Translations under genes and position numbers: made by a program
Shown: piece by piece, positions 1 to 35,746 of the stretch
Position numbering within the stretch: position 1 is the stretch's first letter
Layout: every line of letters begins with the position of its first letter
Notes under the pieces: model-generated
Seen by the model: only the letters and a program-made list of their open reading frames with translations
The model's database searches: none
Told to the model about the DNA's origin: nothing
Source: Bacteroidales bacterium
GTDB taxonomy: Bacteria > Bacteroidota > Bacteroidia > Bacteroidales > UBA932
Reading direction: 5' to 3'
DNA: 38,678 nt
Assembly: GCA_022774085.1 (NCBI GenBank)
Contig: JALFNZ010000103.1
Coordinates: forward strand, 1 to 38,678

Positions 1-495
1 GATTGAAGCAGTCTGCGGGACGCTCATAAGGTTGACCACGAAGGCGAATATGCTGAAGTGAAGCACCTTGCATGCCGCAGGAATCCTCTGCGGAGGGATG
101 GTCATCTTATTGTGGATGAACCAAAGGCCTATGGGCTCTGAAAGAATGACTATTATCAGGGAAAGCGCCAGCTGGATCATAACGGCCGTGGAATAGACCT
201 TGTTGAGCTGTGCCTGGGCACCTCTGCCCATTTCGAAGGTGATGAATCTTGAAACGGCGGAATTCAGGGAGCCTGATATGACTGTGAACATTGCAACGAC
301 TCCCCCGACGACGTTGTATATGCCGTAATCCTGCTCTCCGAGGGCTGAAAGGACGACCCTTGAGGTGAACAGACCCACAAGCAGCATGAAGAACATCCTG
401 AAATAGAGCATCAGGGTGTTTTTCGCTATAGTCCTGCCTTTTGAAGAGTAGTCGTCCGCCATATAATCCGTATTGCCGTTACTTTTGATTCCCAT
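1..495 (-). CDS. Polysaccharide/lipopolysaccharide flippase-like membrane protein (Wzx/MATE-like), N-terminal part; truncated by window start
   Basis: Minus-strand open frame from ATG at 495: MGIKSNGNTDYMADDYSSKGRTIAKNTLMLYFRMFFMLLVGLFTSRVVLSALGEQDYGIYNVVGGVVAMFTVISGSLNSAVSRFITFEMGR..., typical of O-antigen flippase N-termini. Confidence 0.8.
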   Translation of the reverse strand, partial: MGIKSNGNTDYMADDYSSKGRTIAKNTLMLYFRMFFMLLVGLFTSRVVLSALGEQDYGIYNVVGGVVAMFTVISGSLNSAVSRFITFEMGRGAQAQLNKVYSTAVMIQLALSLIIVILSEPIGLWFIHNKMTIPPQRIPAACKVLHFSIFAFVVNLMSVPQTASI

Positions 496-499
496 TGTA

Positions 500-507
500 C
501 AAAGATA
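500..507 (-). promoter_or_regulatory. Bacteroidetes -7 box TATCTTTG for the flippase-like gene
   Basis: Reverse complement reads TATCTTTGTACAATG, directly abutting the start codon. Confidence 0.55.
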
Positions 508-617
508 GGAATCTTCAAAAAATAAGGGACACTTTTATTTTGAGATTTAGAATAAAAACACTAAATTAGTCGGACAAATTGTGAAAAGTGTAATATAACA
601 CTAAAAAGATAATAATT

Positions 618-917
618 ATGGTACGTTACGCAGTAATGTGGAAATTCAAGCCATCAGATGGCAGGAGTCCAAAGGAGATCGGAGAAGACGTCAAGGAGAA
701 ATATGAGTCCCTCTTGGGGCTTGTTCCGGGTCTGAAAAACATTGAGGTAGGAATCAACAGAAATGAATCAGCTACGGCTTACGATGCTATCATGATTGCA
801 GATTTCGAAACCTGGGAAGCACTTGCAGACTACAAGGCTGACTCCATGAGGGACAATGTTATCAAATATGTAGAGACTCTTATCGACGTACGTGCCAGAG
901 TCGAATATGAAAGATAA
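618..917 (+). CDS. Dabb family (stress-responsive A/B barrel) protein
   Basis: 99 aa, MVRYAVMWKFKP...GLVPGLKNIEVGIN...YDAIMIADFETWEALADYKADSMRDNVIKYVE; matches Dabb fold pattern. Confidence 0.75.
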   Translation: MVRYAVMWKFKPSDGRSPKEIGEDVKEKYESLLGLVPGLKNIEVGINRNESATAYDAIMIADFETWEALADYKADSMRDNVIKYVETLIDVRARVEYER

Positions 918-951
918 CAGTTTTATCAATAAGGAATTTCCTGAACAGAAA

Positions 952-982
952 GAGGATGACCGTTTGGCCATCCTCATTTTTT
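952..982 (+). terminator. Rho-independent terminator downstream of the Dabb gene, between it and convergent fba
   Basis: GAGGATG-accgtttggc-CATCCTC stem followed by ATTTTTT. Confidence 0.7.
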
Positions 983-999
983 GTGTCTTCGCAGTCGGA

Positions 1000-2001
1000 T
1001 TACTCAGCTTTGCCGTCTGAACCGAGAACGTTGATGATTTTGTGCTTGTAGAGCTTCTTCATGTTGTCACGAGCAGGTCCGAGGTATTTGCGTGGGTCGA
1101 ACTCAGCTGGTTTCTCAGCGAATACCTTACGGATTGCAGCTGTCATAGCAAGACGTGAGTCAGAGTCGATGTTGATCTTGCAAACTGCAGATTTGGCTGC
1201 TTTGCGGAGCCAAGGCTCAGGAATACCGATAGCAGACTTGAGGGCGCCACCGAATTTGTTGATTGTGTCAACCTCCTCCTGAGGAACTGATGAAGAACCG
1301 TGGAGAACGATAGGGAATCCAGGAAGCTCTTTCTCTACACCCTCGAGAACGTCGAATGCAAGCATTGGAGGTACGAGGCGGCCAGTCTCTGGATCAACTG
1401 TGCACTGCTCAGGAGTGAATTTGTAAGCTCCGTGTGAAGTACCGATTGAGATGGCGAGAGAGTCGCATCCGGTCTTGGTAACAAAGTCAACGACTTCCTC
1501 AGGACGGGTGTAAGTGTGATGTTCTGAAGATACCTCATCCTCAACACCTGCGAGCACTCCGAGCTCACCCTCAACTGTTACGTCGAACTGATGTGCATAG
1601 TCATCAACCTGTTTTGTAAGAGCTACGTTCTCATCGTAAGGAAGGTGTGAACCGTCGATCATTACTGAAGAGAAACCGTTGTCGATACAAGCCTTGCAAG
1701 TCTCGAAAGTATCACCATGGTCAAGGTGAAGAACAATCTGAGGATTTGCCCAGCCAAGCTCCTTTGCGTACTCAACAGCACCCTGAGCCATGTAGCGGAG
1801 GAGTGTACCGTTTGCGTAGTTGCGTGCGCCCTTTGATACCTGGAGGATAACAGGAGATTTAGTCTCAGCTGCAGCCTGGATGATAGCCTGCATCTGCTCC
1901 ATGTTGTTGAAATTGAATGCTGGAATTGCGTAACCGCCGTCAATAGCCTTAGCGAACATCTCTCTGGTGTTCACAAGACCAAGTTCTTTGTAAGATACCA
2001 T
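1000..2001 (-). CDS. fba: Class II fructose-bisphosphate aldolase
   Basis: MVSYKELGLVNTREMFAKAIDGGYAIPAFNFNNMEQMQAI..., HLDHGDTFE, SVMIDGSHLPYDENVALTK, VLHGSSSVP; ATG at 2001 preferred to the upstream TTG of the ORF track. Confidence 0.93.
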   Translation of the reverse strand: MVSYKELGLVNTREMFAKAIDGGYAIPAFNFNNMEQMQAIIQAAAETKSPVILQVSKGARNYANGTLLRYMAQGAVEYAKELGWANPQIVLHLDHGDTFETCKACIDNGFSSVMIDGSHLPYDENVALTKQVDDYAHQFDVTVEGELGVLAGVEDEVSSEHHTYTRPEEVVDFVTKTGCDSLAISIGTSHGAYKFTPEQCTVDPETGRLVPPMLAFDVLEGVEKELPGFPIVLHGSSSVPQEEVDTINKFGGALKSAIGIPEPWLRKAAKSAVCKINIDSDSRLAMTAAIRKVFAEKPAEFDPRKYLGPARDNMKKLYKHKIINVLGSDGKAE

Positions 2002-2102
2002 AAAATCTATAATTTGATGAAAATTCGTTTCCATTTTTCTAAAACTCTGCAAAAATAACTAATTTTGCGGAATATTGAAAAATTTATTCCACAAGGTTAA
2101 AA

Positions 2103-2672
2103 ATGGCAGAAAAAGTTATAATTTTCTCAGCACCTTCAGGAGCAGGGAAAAGCACGATAGTGAATCATATTCTTAAACTATACCCTGAACTTGAATTCTC
2201 AATTTCAGCCACTTCACGAGCTCCCAGGGGCAGTGAGAAAGATGGCGTAGAGTACTATTTCTTCAGTGCTGACCAGTTCAGGAAGATGATAAGCGAAGAC
2301 AAGTTCGTCGAATACGAGGAAGTGTATTCCGGTTCGTTTTACGGTACGCTCAAGTCTGAAGTGGAAAGAATATGGGCCAAAGGCCACACTATCGTCTTCG
2401 ACATCGATGTCAAGGGCGGAGTGAATGTAAAAAGGATTTTCGGCGACAAGGCTTTGTCCGTTCTCATTAAGGCGCCATCGACGGAGGTTCTGCGCCAGAG
2501 ACTTATTGGCCGCGGGACAGATTCAATGGAGGCCATCGGGAAAAGGCTTGCAAAGGCTGAGTCAGAGATGGAATTTGCAAACGGAAAATTTGACTATGTA
2601 CTTGTAAATGATTCTCTTGAAGATGCTCTTGCCGAAGCGGGAAAAATAGTCGGAGAGTTTCTTGCCAAATAA
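2103..2672 (+). CDS. gmk: Guanylate kinase
   Basis: P-loop SAPSGAGKSTIV, SISATSRAPRGSEKDGVEYYF, Gmk length. Confidence 0.95.
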   Translation: MAEKVIIFSAPSGAGKSTIVNHILKLYPELEFSISATSRAPRGSEKDGVEYYFFSADQFRKMISEDKFVEYEEVYSGSFYGTLKSEVERIWAKGHTIVFDIDVKGGVNVKRIFGDKALSVLIKAPSTEVLRQRLIGRGTDSMEAIGKRLAKAESEMEFANGKFDYVLVNDSLEDALAEAGKIVGEFLAK

Positions 2673-2681
2673 TCATCTTTT

Positions 2682-3242
2682 ATGAAAATTGCCGTTTACG
2701 GAGGTTCGTTCAATCCCCTCCATATAGGGCATTATGCCATTATCAGGCATCTGGTCGAGGTTGAGGGCTTCGACCTGGTGTATCTTGTGGTATCTCCGAA
2801 GAACCCTTTGAAGGAGGGCATAAGTGCAGAGTCAGCTCCTCAGCGTTTCGAAGCGGCGCGCCAGGCAGTTGTGAGAAGAGGTTTGGAAGACAAGGTGACT
2901 GTAGATGACATCGAACTGAAAATGCCGGCCCCACATTTCACTATCAGGACTTTGGATGCTCTGAAAGAAAGAGAGCCGGAAAACGAGTTCACCCTCATCA
3001 TGGGATCGGACCAGATTGCAGACATCCACAGGTGGAAGGATTATGAAAGATTGCTCTGTGAATACGGAGTTCTGGTATATCCCCGCAATGGCTATGACCT
3101 GGAAGGCATCATCGATGAGCTCAAAAAAGAGCATCCATCATGCCGTTTGGGAATGATGGATGCTCCTATGGTTGATATTTCGTCCACAGCCATCCGCGAA
3201 GCCCTTGCCAATGGCCGGAGCGTTGATGACTACCTCATGTAG
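2682..3242 (+). CDS. nadD: Nicotinate-nucleotide adenylyltransferase
   Basis: GGSFNPLHIGHYAI, LIMGSDQIADIHRWKDYE, DISSTAIREAL. Confidence 0.94.
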   Translation: MKIAVYGGSFNPLHIGHYAIIRHLVEVEGFDLVYLVVSPKNPLKEGISAESAPQRFEAARQAVVRRGLEDKVTVDDIELKMPAPHFTIRTLDALKEREPENEFTLIMGSDQIADIHRWKDYERLLCEYGVLVYPRNGYDLEGIIDELKKEHPSCRLGMMDAPMVDISSTAIREALANGRSVDDYLM

Positions 3243-3281
3243 TATGCTCCGACAGGACCGCCTCCAGCTGAACGGTAGGTT

Positions 3282-4991
3282 TTATTTCGAAACAAGTTCA
3301 GTAGCCTTTGCAAGAGCCGGTACAATGTGAGGGAAGATATTTTCCGCACCGATTTCCTTATCGACTCCGAACTTGACAAGAGAGGCATGTACTTTCTCCG
3401 TGACTCCAGAAAGGATTACGGTCACTCCCCTCTTGCGTGTACGCTCGCAGAGGTTGCGCAAGTTGTTGATACCGGTCGAATCAATGAAAGGAACCTTGCG
3501 CATCCTGATGATACGCACCTTGGTGCCACTCTGCTTCATATTCTCAAGTTCTTCAAAACGGCTTGCAAGTCCGAAGAAGAAAGGACCGTTGATTTCATAG
3601 ACCTCAACTCCCTCGGGAATATCCAGATATTCAGTATCCTCCGGTGAAATGACCTCATCGTTTTCAGTAGCTGCAAGCTGATTGTTTTCAAGGACTTCAA
3701 TAGACGAAGTCTGCATGACGCGACGAACGAAGAGCACGATTGCGAGCAGCACTCCTACCTCGATGGCCACAGTAAGGTCAACTATGACAGTAAGGAAGAA
3801 AGTTATCAGAAGCACGGCTACGTCGGAACGGTCACCTTTGAGAAGATATTTGAAAGTTCTCCATTCACTCATATTGTAAGCGACCATGACAAGGATGGCG
3901 GCAAGGCATCCCAGCGGGATATAAACCGCATAAGGCATGAGGAAAAGGTAAATCAGAAGAAGGACGATGGCGTGGATGATGCCTGTGACCGGAGTCTTTC
4001 CGCCGTTGTTGATGCTGGCCATTGTCCTTGCCAGTGCACCAGTTGCCGGAATACCGCCGAACAAAGGAGTGACGATGTTGGCAATACCCTGTCCGATGAG
4101 TTCCGTATTTGAATTATGATGTTTTCCGGTAGCACCGTCAGCGACCATTGCAGCCATAAGTGATTCGATGGCGCAGAGGATGGCGATGGTGAAGGCCGGG
4201 GAAACAAGTCCCTTGATTGTCTGATAATCAAATTCAGGGGCTACAGGTTTTGGCATAGGAAGGCCCTGAGCGAGTTCCGGGAATTTTGAGCCGATGGTTG
4301 CAAACTCGATTCCGGCGAATTTGCTGAGAAGAACCGAGGCTACGGTACCCACGACAAGGGCAATCAGGGAACCTGGAATCTTCTTGGTAACCTTGCTCCA
4401 GAAAATGATGATCAGAAGGCAGCCAAGGCTCATGACAAGCTCAATCCAGTTAATTGAGCCTATGTTCTGGAAATAGCATATCCACTCGGGAATAAATCCG
4501 GCAGGCACTTGAAGATCAAGCGGATAACCGAAAAAATCTTTCATCTGTGTAGAAAAAATCGTAAGTGCGATACCGCTGGTGAATCCGACTACGATAGGAT
4601 ATGGGATGAATTTGAATATCGCACCCATCTTGCACAGGCCCATTACGACAAGGAAAACACCTGCCATGATGGTTGCTATGATGAGGCCCTGCATTCCATA
4701 CTGTGCAACGATACCTGCGACAATTACGATGAATGCGCCGGTAGGTCCTCCTATGAGGAAATTCGATCCGCCGAAGAAAGAAATGAGGAAACCTGCAACA
4801 ATTGCAGTAATGAGACCCTGCTGAGGGGTTACGCCGCTGGCGATACCGAATGCAATTGCAAGAGGAAGGGCAATGATTCCGACAATGATACCGGCAATAA
4901 GGTCTGACATGAATGTCTTCTTGTCATAACGGCCTTTCTTGAACAATCCGAAGAACTTCGGTTTGAATACGTTGGTTAAATTTAAGTTCAT
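3282..4991 (-). CDS. SulP family inorganic anion transporter with C-terminal STAS domain
   Basis: DLIAGIIVGIIALPLAIAFGIASGVTPQQGLITAIVAGF; C-terminal STAS-like FIDSTGINNLRNL. Confidence 0.92.
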   Translation of the reverse strand: MNLNLTNVFKPKFFGLFKKGRYDKKTFMSDLIAGIIVGIIALPLAIAFGIASGVTPQQGLITAIVAGFLISFFGGSNFLIGGPTGAFIVIVAGIVAQYGMQGLIIATIMAGVFLVVMGLCKMGAIFKFIPYPIVVGFTSGIALTIFSTQMKDFFGYPLDLQVPAGFIPEWICYFQNIGSINWIELVMSLGCLLIIIFWSKVTKKIPGSLIALVVGTVASVLLSKFAGIEFATIGSKFPELAQGLPMPKPVAPEFDYQTIKGLVSPAFTIAILCAIESLMAAMVADGATGKHHNSNTELIGQGIANIVTPLFGGIPATGALARTMASINNGGKTPVTGIIHAIVLLLIYLFLMPYAVYIPLGCLAAILVMVAYNMSEWRTFKYLLKGDRSDVAVLLITFFLTVIVDLTVAIEVGVLLAIVLFVRRVMQTSSIEVLENNQLAATENDEVISPEDTEYLDIPEGVEVYEINGPFFFGLASRFEELENMKQSGTKVRIIRMRKVPFIDSTGINNLRNLCERTRKRGVTVILSGVTEKVHASLVKFGVDKEIGAENIFPHIVPALAKATELVSK

Positions 4992-5010
4992 GATTTACAC
5001 TAATAATTGT

Positions 5011-5034
5011 TACACTGTGTACACTTTGTACACT
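5011..5034. repeat. Three 9-bp-spaced TACACT direct repeats upstream of the SulP gene
   Basis: TTACACTGT GTACACTTT GTACACTCA; TACACT at 5011, 5020 and 5029. Confidence 0.6.
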
Positions 5035-5047
5035 CACTACTATCACA

Positions 5048-5908
5048 CTATTCACCTGACATATAGGCTCCGAACCGCTTTGCGGTATTGAGTTCCGCCT
5101 CCTTTGTGGAAGCTCCGGTCAACTTTGTCGTAACCGATGATGCCGGAAGGCTTACAAGCCTTACCATATTCTCAGTTTTTGTCACACTTTCGAATTTCTT
5201 GGAGTTGAAGCTGATTCCGGCACCGACAGGTTTCGGATTCTCAGAAACATTTGCTGGATGCACACCCCAGACATAGGCATAAGATTCCCCTATTACAACT
5301 GTCTCGCCTTCATGATAATTTATACCTGTAAGGAACTGTACTTTCTTTCCCGAAAGCTCAGTTGCAGTCACACGGGCAGTTCTGTTCTTGACATAGACAT
5401 CCACCCTTATGCTGACATCAACTGTATCATCCTTGTAAGGAACGCCGTAAGCGATGAGCTCGGCATAAGATCCCTTGGAAGTGTCTCCGACACGGGCGGT
5501 ACGTCCCTTGGTAGCCTTCAGTTTGATTTCCTTTTCTCCGTCCCAAAGTGCAATGCCTCCAAAACCTACTGTCTTTCCAACCATATATTCGTCACATCCG
5601 GCACCTGATTCTTCCTGCTGGGCCTGGGTAGGATACCATTTATACTTCAACAGTTCCATTCCCCTGCCACTCTTTGAATACAGGTCGATGGCACCGCTGT
5701 CGTTGAAATATATTCTTAAAGCCATGTGGCTATTCTCTACAGCAGGACCATGATGGCCTACAAGTTTATACATATTCGCCTGTTCTGAAACGATTTCCTT
5801 AATCTGAAGGGAATCGCTACGCAGGAAAAGGCTGCTTGCAGTCTGTGCCGAAGACTGGAGGCTGAATGCCGAAACTGCAAGGAAAAGAATCAAATGTCTG
5901 GTTTTCAT
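5048..5908 (-). CDS. Secreted protein, DUF4861-like
   Basis: Signal peptide MKTRHLILFLAVSAFSLQSSAQ; GAGCDEYMVGKTVGFGGIALWDG... resembles DUF4861 proteins. Confidence 0.55.
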   Translation of the reverse strand: MKTRHLILFLAVSAFSLQSSAQTASSLFLRSDSLQIKEIVSEQANMYKLVGHHGPAVENSHMALRIYFNDSGAIDLYSKSGRGMELLKYKWYPTQAQQEESGAGCDEYMVGKTVGFGGIALWDGEKEIKLKATKGRTARVGDTSKGSYAELIAYGVPYKDDTVDVSIRVDVYVKNRTARVTATELSGKKVQFLTGINYHEGETVVIGESYAYVWGVHPANVSENPKPVGAGISFNSKKFESVTKTENMVRLVSLPASSVTTKLTGASTKEAELNTAKRFGAYMSGE

Positions 5909-32412: not shown

Positions 32413-32886
32413 CTAAATATTGATGCTGTAATTATGTTTTATTTCCTCCATGACAAAAGTGCTTTCGATGGAAGCAATATTGTCATGGCTTCCGATGACA
32501 TTCAGAAGGAATTGCTGGTAATATTTCATGTCGGGGGCCTGGATGCGGAGGAGGTAGTCAAACGCCCCGGAAATATTGTAACATTCCGTCACCTGTGGTA
32601 TGGTCTTTATCATTTCGGTAAAGGCCAGGGCCATTTCCCTGTTCAATCTCCTCAATTTGATGCTGCAGAATACGGCAAAGCCCTGATTCAGTTTGTTTGC
32701 ATTCAAGATTGCCGTGTACTGACGGATTATGCCGGTGCGTTCTAGCCTTTTTACTCGCTCATAAGTCGGAGTGGTTGACAGGTGTACCTTGGCAGCGAGC
32801 TCCTTATTGCTCAGACGTGCCTCCTGCTGCAATGCCCGAAGGATTTCAATGTCTTTGGCATCGAGTTTTATTGATTCTGTTTCCAT
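32413..32886 (-). CDS. Lrp/AsnC family transcriptional regulator
   Basis: IKLDAKDIEILRALQQEARLSNKELAAKVHLSTTPTYERVKRLERTGIIRQYTAILN; AsnC ligand domain. Confidence 0.93.
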   Translation of the reverse strand: METESIKLDAKDIEILRALQQEARLSNKELAAKVHLSTTPTYERVKRLERTGIIRQYTAILNANKLNQGFAVFCSIKLRRLNREMALAFTEMIKTIPQVTECYNISGAFDYLLRIQAPDMKYYQQFLLNVIGSHDNIASIESTFVMEEIKHNYSINI

Positions 32887-33025
32887 ATCGGAAAATATTA
32901 AAAATTAGAATACCATTCCTTGATTTTTGACAAATATAGATAATTCTTCCAAAATATCAATTTTTCATAGAAATAATTAACAGGGAACATAATTTTGCAT
33001 CAGAAAACAATAAAAACGAACAAAT

Positions 33026-34312
33026 ATGTCACAGGAAAATCTTCATCTCGAAACCCTCGCCCTCCATGTAGGACAGGAACAGGCAGATCCGGCAACCGAT
33101 TCACGCGCAGTGCCTATTTACCAGACAACATCATACGTATTCCATAATTCACAGCATGCTGCTGACCGTTTCGGTTTGCGCGATTCCGGAAACATTTACG
33201 GACGTCTGACTAATTCGACTCAGGATGTCTTTGAAAGACGAATAGCAGCCCTCGAAGGCGGTTCAGGAGCGCTTGCCGTGGCAAGTGGTGCCGCTGCAGT
33301 GACCTATGCCCTGCAGAATGTCTGCCAAGCCGGAGACCACATCGTAGCTGCTGACAATCTCTACGGAGGTTCATTCAATCTGATTACACATACGCTTGCT
33401 ACTCAAGGTATTACAAACACCATTGTAAATGTCAATGATCTTGAGGCACTTGAAGCTGCCATTCAGCCGAACACTAAGGTGGTATATGCCGAGACCTTCG
33501 GAAACCCGAACAGCGACGTCACCGACATCGAAGGAATCGCTGAAGTTGCACACAGGCACGGCGTTCTTTTCATAATCGACAACACATTTGCGACACCGTT
33601 CGTCTGCAGGCCGATCGAACATGGAGCTGACGTTGTGGTTCATTCGGCAACAAAATTCATCGGTGGCCACGGATCATCATTGGGTGGAGTCATCGTTGAC
33701 GGCGGTAAATTCGATTTCAAGGCAAACGCGGACCGTTATCCGTCAATTGCAAAGCCTGACCCTTCATATCACGGAGCAGTCTTTGCCGACGTGGCAGGTG
33801 CAGCGGCTTTCGTCACCCGTATCCGTGCCGTGATTTTGCGTGACACCGGAGCGACCATCTCTCCTTTCAACGCATGGATTCTTCTGCAAGGTGTCGAGAG
33901 TCTGCCTCTGAGGATTGAGCGCCACGTGCAGAATGCACTCAAGGTCGTGGATTTCCTGAGCAAGCATCCTAAAGTCAGGAGTGTGAGCCATCCGAGCCTT
34001 CCTTCTCACAGGGACCATGAACTTTATAAGAAATATTATCCTGACGGAGCGGCAAGCATTTTCACGTTCGAAATCGATGGCACTCAGGAAGATGCATGGA
34101 AGTTCATTGATTCGCTGAAGGTTTTCTCGCTTTTGGCAAATGTTGCCGATGTGAAGAGTCTGGTAATCCATCCTTATACCACGACCCACAGTCAGATGAG
34201 TTCTGAAGAGCTTGCACAACAGCATATTACCCCTTCAACGGTGCGTCTGTCAATAGGTGTGGAGCACATCGATGACATCATTGCTGACATTGCACAGGCA
34301 CTAGACAGATAG
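33026..34312 (+). CDS. O-acetylhomoserine aminocarboxypropyltransferase/cysteine synthase (MetY-like, PLP-dependent)
   Basis: LHLETLALHVGQEQADPATDSRAVPIYQTTSYVF; VVHSATKFIGGHGSSLGGVIVDGG. Confidence 0.92.
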   Translation: MSQENLHLETLALHVGQEQADPATDSRAVPIYQTTSYVFHNSQHAADRFGLRDSGNIYGRLTNSTQDVFERRIAALEGGSGALAVASGAAAVTYALQNVCQAGDHIVAADNLYGGSFNLITHTLATQGITNTIVNVNDLEALEAAIQPNTKVVYAETFGNPNSDVTDIEGIAEVAHRHGVLFIIDNTFATPFVCRPIEHGADVVVHSATKFIGGHGSSLGGVIVDGGKFDFKANADRYPSIAKPDPSYHGAVFADVAGAAAFVTRIRAVILRDTGATISPFNAWILLQGVESLPLRIERHVQNALKVVDFLSKHPKVRSVSHPSLPSHRDHELYKKYYPDGAASIFTFEIDGTQEDAWKFIDSLKVFSLLANVADVKSLVIHPYTTTHSQMSSEELAQQHITPSTVRLSIGVEHIDDIIADIAQALDR

Positions 34313-34355: not shown

Positions 34356-34363
34356 GTTATACC
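34356..34363 (+). promoter_or_regulatory. -7 box TACCTTTG upstream of the two-component genes (approximate position)
   Basis: gaaaagttaTACCTTTGtcttg about 40 nt before ATG 34401. Confidence 0.5.
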
Positions 34364-34400
34364 TTTGTCTTGATTCATGATAGGCAGATGGTAAATTACA

Positions 34401-34868
34401 ATGGCTTTGAACAACAAGAAAGGCAGAATATTAGTGGTAGATGACAATCAGGGCATTCGCAATGCCCTGAAAATTTTATTACCTGCATATTTTGCTCAGG
34501 TGGAACTCATTGCATCTCCCAAGACCCTCGTCAGCACGATGGAGTCTTTTCATCCGAATGTGCAGATTGTCCTTTTCACTGCCTATGCAGACATTGCTCT
34601 TGCCGTAGAGGGTATGAAACATCGTATCAATACAATGCATATATGCCTTCCGGCTCTTCGTGAACGACCGGAAGACATTTTGCCGCTTGCAGAACGCTTC
34701 CTTTCTAGATTCGCAGAGAAATATCGACGGACTGCAGCCAGCATTGACCCGCATGCCGCCAATCTTCTCAAGTCCCACCTCTGGAACGGCAACCTTACTC
34801 TCGTGGCAAAGGAGCTCGGCATCAGCCGTCCGACTCTGTACAGCAAACTCAAGAAATACGACATTTGA
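34401..34868 (+). CDS. Internally shortened NtrC-type response regulator (partial REC plus C-terminal Fis-type HTH)
   Basis: GRILVVDDNQGIRNALKILL (REC start) ... VLFTAYADIALAVEGMK | HRINTMHICLPALRERPEDILPLAERFL (sigma54-AAA+ end) ... NGN | LTLVAKELGISRPTLYSKLKKYDI (Fis HTH); open frame retained. Confidence 0.8.
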   Translation: MALNNKKGRILVVDDNQGIRNALKILLPAYFAQVELIASPKTLVSTMESFHPNVQIVLFTAYADIALAVEGMKHRINTMHICLPALRERPEDILPLAERFLSRFAEKYRRTAASIDPHAANLLKSHLWNGNLTLVAKELGISRPTLYSKLKKYDI

Positions 34869-35746
34869 TGGCAATCTGGACAATCATACTTATCTGCCTT
34901 GGTGTGATGTTGGTTACTTGTATGGTGACTGCCGTCTTTGTCAGGATAAAGGACCGGAAAAAGCTGGAATATATGCTCGATGCCTTCGAAGATGGAGAAT
35001 ATAACTTCCGGTTCACTGAGGACAGCAAGTTCAACAGAAGCCTCAACCGCATCAAATGGATTGTGGACCGTCGCCGCCAGCAGAATGAACAGGAATCCTG
35101 GACAAAACTGATACGTGTCCTCACTCACGAGATTATGAATACGGTCAGTCCGATTGCTTCGCTCAGCGATGCCTTGAGCCACTATATTGACGTGCCTGAA
35201 GATTGCCGTGAGGTTGATGTGAAGGCGGGGCTTGAAACAATCTCGTCATCTTCCAAGGATTTGATCAAATTCGTTGAGTCTTACCGGGAGCTTGCAGGAG
35301 TGGCAAGACCTGTCAAAAAAGGTCTCATGGTTGACGAACTGTCACATAAAGTCATAGACCTGACTCATGAGCAGTGTTCTGATGCCGGGGCAGTTTGCAG
35401 CTACAAGGCTGAATCCGAGGATATTCTGATCTATGCAGATGAATCGCAAATCAGCCGCATCCTCATCAACCTGATTAAGAATGCCTTGCAGGCAGGAGCG
35501 AAGAATATCAGCATAACTGCCGGCATAGACGGTTCCGAGCAGACAGTAATCAAAGTATCGAATGACGGTGCTGCCATCACGCCTGAATCACAGGAACAGA
35601 TTTTCATACCATTCTTCACCACCAAGACTGATGGTTCAGGCATTGGCCTCAGCCTGTCACGTCAAATAATGCGTGCCCATAACGGCACCCTCGACCTGAC
35701 AAGGAGTGACAGTCAATGTACCGAATTCACACTGATTTTCAAATAA
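34868..35746 (+). CDS. Sensor histidine kinase, short form without recognizable sensory/PAS module
   Basis: One N-terminal TM, LIRVLTHEIMNTVSPIASLSD (H box), LINLIKNALQAGA (N box), GSGIGLSLSRQIMRAHNG (G box); start overlaps the regulator stop (TGATG). Confidence 0.87.
   Translation: MAIWTIILICLGVMLVTCMVTAVFVRIKDRKKLEYMLDAFEDGEYNFRFTEDSKFNRSLNRIKWIVDRRRQQNEQESWTKLIRVLTHEIMNTVSPIASLSDALSHYIDVPEDCREVDVKAGLETISSSSKDLIKFVESYRELAGVARPVKKGLMVDELSHKVIDLTHEQCSDAGAVCSYKAESEDILIYADESQISRILINLIKNALQAGAKNISITAGIDGSEQTVIKVSNDGAAITPESQEQIFIPFFTTKTDGSGIGLSLSRQIMRAHNGTLDLTRSDSQCTEFTLIFK

Follow-up and report, generated by a model that had tools for sequence, protein, structure and literature searches.

A 155-residue open reading frame in a Bacteroidales genome, probably the in-frame remnant of an NtrC-type response regulator

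The open reading frame (ORF) of 155 amino acids at positions 34401–34868 (forward strand) of the window, the whole stretch of 38,678 nucleotides analysed here, is probably what is left of an NtrC-type (sigma54-activating) response regulator of ~448 residues that three frame-preserving deletions have recently inactivated in this lineage, and the 155-residue product is most likely non-functional. The window belongs to an uncultured Bacteroidales genome (G000), a metagenome-assembled genome (MAG) of 195 contigs that is 83% complete and the only genome representing its species. The nearest relative found, G239, has ~91.6% DNA identity to G000 over the sampled contigs and harbours an intact full-length orthologue (448 aa, contig C91) in the same place before the kinase gene, so that the reduction from 448 to 155 residues amounts to two thirds of the regulator. 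The original prediction had put the ORF at these positions and had described a sigma54-type response regulator with three in-frame internal deletions, free of stops and frameshifts, all of which was confirmed.

The three deletions and the domains they remove

The alignment to full-length relatives proposed along with the original prediction showed that the ORF aligns end to end with the regulator of G239, with 92% amino-acid identity over the aligned residues and exactly three gaps of 93, 603 and 177 nt, each a multiple of three and flanked by DNA of 87–94% identity. At the first junction (34551–34562, forward strand) 31 codons are missing, comprising the beta3 strand with the phospho-acceptor Asp and the following helix, and the join carries an imperfect direct repeat of ~10 bp (copies ATCCgGATGTG and ATCCtGATGTG). 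The second junction (34619–34622, forward strand) lacks 201 codons, which include the end of the receiver domain (REC), the linker and nearly the whole AAA+ ATPase with Walker A, GAFTDA and Walker B, and the two sides together form a hybrid codon (C|AT, His74); when meaningful microhomology was sought here none was found. At the third junction (34782–34794, forward strand) 59 codons are missing, so that the AAA lid has lost its second half and the Fis-type DNA-binding domain its first helix, and there is a CGGCAA repeat with flanking similarity. What had been predicted to be lost at the first two junctions, the strand with the phospho-acceptor Asp and the rest of REC together with Walker A, Walker B and the GAFTGA motif (GAFTDA in G239), is thus lost, while the proposed short-homology recombination is plausible at the first and third junctions but not at the second.

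The same joins bear on whether the MAG contig simply dropped segments of a full-length gene during assembly. The assembly is indeed fragmented and incomplete, but the repeats are at most ~10 bp at two joins and absent at the third, too short to mislead a k-mer assembler, the relative is matched closely on both sides of every join and an artefact would not respect the reading frame, which makes an assembly error very improbable.

When the ORF was compared with Pfam, the Response_reg match was sub-threshold (21.2 bits against a cut-off of 30.2) and covered profile positions 1–45 of 111, the AAA lid was matched by half (positions 1–45 of 87) and Sigma54_activat, which scores 232 bits in the G239 orthologue, gave no match. 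The alignment to the G239 orthologue places the phospho-acceptor strand (PDVVLLDMNF) among the residues absent from the ORF, and alignment and Pfam together do the same for Walker A, Walker B and GAFTDA. The HTH_8 match covers only positions 18–42 of 42, compared with 1–42 in the relatives, and since it starts at position 18 the DNA-binding domain has lost its first helix; of the normal Fis-type helix-turn-helix (HTH) initially described at the C-terminus the second part is present but the domain is not complete.

The ORF therefore shares with regulators of the NtrC/AtoC/ZraR type (REC, Sigma54_activat, AAA lid and HTH_8) an orthologous origin and the position before the same kinase, its cognate kinase gene being next door, but most of REC is gone, including the phospho-acceptor Asp, and neither an AAA+ core (Walker A, Walker B, GAFT(G/D)A) nor a complete DNA-binding domain of the Fis type is present. 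Over its last ~25 residues it matches the C-terminal end of free-standing HTH_8 proteins such as Fis; unlike Fis it has no dimerising N-terminal helices before the HTH, these residues being deleted at the third junction, and the REC and lid fragments fused before the HTH are unrelated to Fis. That NtrC-type regulators can naturally lose the loop contacting sigma54 is reportedly a known theme, an example being Caulobacter NtrC, which is without GAFTGA. Such regulators retain REC and the AAA+ fold along with an entire DNA-binding domain, whereas in the remnant nearly everything is deleted. A further likeness is to ordinary bacterial gene remnants arising by deletions between short repeats, which also are recent, confined to a single lineage and show large internal losses next to intact relatives, as is the case here with an intact orthologue in the close relative and the domains lost in one lineage; unlike in those, all three deletions happen to be in frame. 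No directly matching case was found in the literature searched.

Distribution of the short form and history of the locus

Full-length regulators are found before the kinase also in G030, G344 and G012, and in the same genus they consist of 442–450 aa and are located directly 5' of a 292-aa kinase. The short form was absent from every other genome searched (the 233 genus members of at least 85% completeness, a draw of 400 across the genus, and wider relatives), which suggests that it most probably dates from after the divergence from G239. Two apparently disrupted copies, in G005 and G021, proved to reflect a gap in the assembly filled with N and the end of a contig.

Downstream, the start of the full-length histidine kinase gene (292 aa, 34868–35746, forward strand) overlaps the stop of the regulator (TGATG). 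A shortening of the kinase as well was considered and rejected, as the relatives have the same 292-aa kinase. Upstream of the ORF the sequence TACCTTTG (34360–34367, forward strand), also present in G239, was identified as a candidate Bacteroidetes-type -7 box, together with a weak -33 element. Further upstream lies an intact gene for a PLP enzyme of Cys/Met metabolism (O-acetylhomoserine sulfhydrylase-like, 33026–34312, forward strand), of which only the last ~40 bp are left at the corresponding place in G239. G239 lacks ~1.77 kb just upstream of the regulator, a loss that takes in most of two genes, one lrp-type and one for the sulfhydrylase, and the locus thus seems to be generally prone to rearrangement. 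At ~5151–5159 of the G239 locus (contig C91), compared with 32501–34270 of the window, the lrp-type fragment runs directly into what is left of the sulfhydrylase gene, its last ~40 bp.

In G030 and G344 the regulator-kinase pair comes after an FtsX/MacB-like ABC-transporter operon, while in both G000 and G239 this operon is situated elsewhere, adjoining an esterase gene. Since it is apart from the pair in both, the separation probably took place before the two lineages split, judging from gene order, and with the pair no longer beside the transporter operon loss of the regulator may be tolerable. The separated operons are located on contig C186 of G000 and contig C13 of G239.

To obtain a background for length changes ~112 kb of alignment between G000 and G239, a sample of contigs, was analysed. 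In this alignment no comparable internal deletions were found in other genes; clear in-gene changes of at least 24 nt elsewhere were limited to two, of 24 and 45 nt and both in frame, and the remaining ones of that size were situated at the edges of genes, at the ends of contigs or within a linker rich in repeats. A genome-wide tendency towards in-frame shrinkage was thus rejected, the other length changes being small or at gene edges, and the clustering of three deletions is specific to the regulator gene within the sample compared.

Selection on the retained codons and the possible fate of the product

For the comparison of the window with G239, dN/dS was 0.04 for the kinase and 0.14 for the retained regulator codons, and between G030 and G344 the values were 0.08 and 0.11. 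When changes were polarised with outgroups, the kinase, which is strongly conserved and under strong constraint, showed 23 synonymous and 2 nonsynonymous changes on the window branch, and the remnant, where relaxation is not clear, showed 14 and 7. The seven nonsynonymous changes compare with ~50 expected if the remnant had been neutral along the whole branch, and a rough model gives a 95% bound of ~8–32%, depending on assumptions, for the neutral share of the branch. Among ~95 columns that are retained here and do not vary in other relatives, one clear private change was seen, and the recognition half of the HTH (segment s4) has no nonsynonymous change. Relaxed constraint already present in the G239 protein was not supported by its own private changes at invariant columns. 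With so few nonsynonymous changes, either the deletions would be recent, occupying at most ~8–32% of the branch, or the remnant would still be under selection.

The likeliest reading is that the regulator was disabled recently while its kinase stayed intact. Such a product would accept no phosphate and hydrolyse no ATP and, with the helix for completion and dimerisation of the DNA-binding domain gone, would presumably not activate transcription. The suggestion of a recent degenerate locus, made as one of two options in the original prediction, is the best fit, with the qualification that no stop or frameshift was found and that the retained codons are still conserved. These points, and the fact that three out of three deletions are in frame, speak against a disabled gene; without selection, three independent deletions would all stay in frame with a probability of ~1/27, and it is unusual for one gene to have undergone three of them while gathering so few neutral substitutions; the background rate of large in-gene deletions is very low in the ~112 kb. 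The frame may have been kept by this chance, or because a deletion out of frame would break a translational coupling with the kinase at TGATG. The kinase may still serve another partner or may have had too little time to decay.

A related possibility, which we regard as improbable, is that selection acts on the frame and not on the product, the ORF being a translated leader for coupled translation of a kinase that works with another regulator. The stop-start overlap, the constraint on the kinase along the window branch and the preservation of coupling by in-frame deletions are all consistent with this, but the coupling itself is putative and a leader needs no amino-acid conservation, which would again require recent deletions.

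The other option of the original prediction, a mini-regulator competing with a full-length paralogue, found no support. In a wider form, in which the protein binds the old operator with its HTH or still makes contact with the kinase, and so would repress constitutively, counteract activation or serve as a decoy, a functional mini-regulator is unlikely. In its favour are the three in-frame junctions, a recognition half without amino-acid change, a number of nonsynonymous changes far below neutral expectation, expression signals that look intact and a lid helix before W.GN that could replace the lost one. Against these stand a codon conservation that may predate the deletions, the HTH_8 match from position 18 only, a structural model of low confidence, the restriction of the short form to this one among the species searched and the lack of a full-length competitor in G000, where the only other regulator matches are two sigma54 activators of greater distance, at 35% and 31% identity, in a genome whose 83% completeness leaves a paralogue possible.

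The AlphaFold check proposed with the original prediction gave no confident fold. With an alignment of eight rows the AlphaFold2 model of the remnant had low confidence throughout (pLDDT 51.7, pTM 0.31). In the full-length G239 protein, used as a control with the same eight rows, the pLDDT was ~87–90 for the HTH compared with ~45–57 in the remnant, and ~72–82 for the REC start compared with ~56–63. The models thus hint weakly that the remnant is not a well-formed protein, the alignment being shallow and the AAA+ core of the control also poorly modelled.

If the ORF is only a remnant, it is an ordinary but well-resolved case of recent regulator loss with the kinase left behind. If the product works, it would illustrate how an ATP-driven activator controlled by phosphorylation can turn into a simple binding protein by a short evolutionary path. 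That the regulator was cut in one or a few steps to a 155-aa DNA- or kinase-binding protein, independent of phosphorylation and ATP and selected beside its original kinase, appears quite unlikely.

Other sigma54 components in the genome

A loss of sigma54 as the cause of the deletions was considered, as no rpoN domain was found in G000 (83% complete). In G239 the start of rpoN is located at a contig end and the matching contig of G000 (C15) ends before that stretch; with other sigma54 activators present in G000, rpoN is most likely merely unsequenced and the explanation was rejected. One sigma54 activator of G000 (contig C107, positions 1157–2395 of the locus) consists of 412 aa without a receiver domain, and matches of similar length are found in many genus members. 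Contig C15 also carries a 5-kb block (positions 1–5047) that is 98.65% identical to positions 1684–6730 of contig C79 in G239, against a background of ~91.6%, which would reflect either recent gene exchange or a wrongly binned contig.
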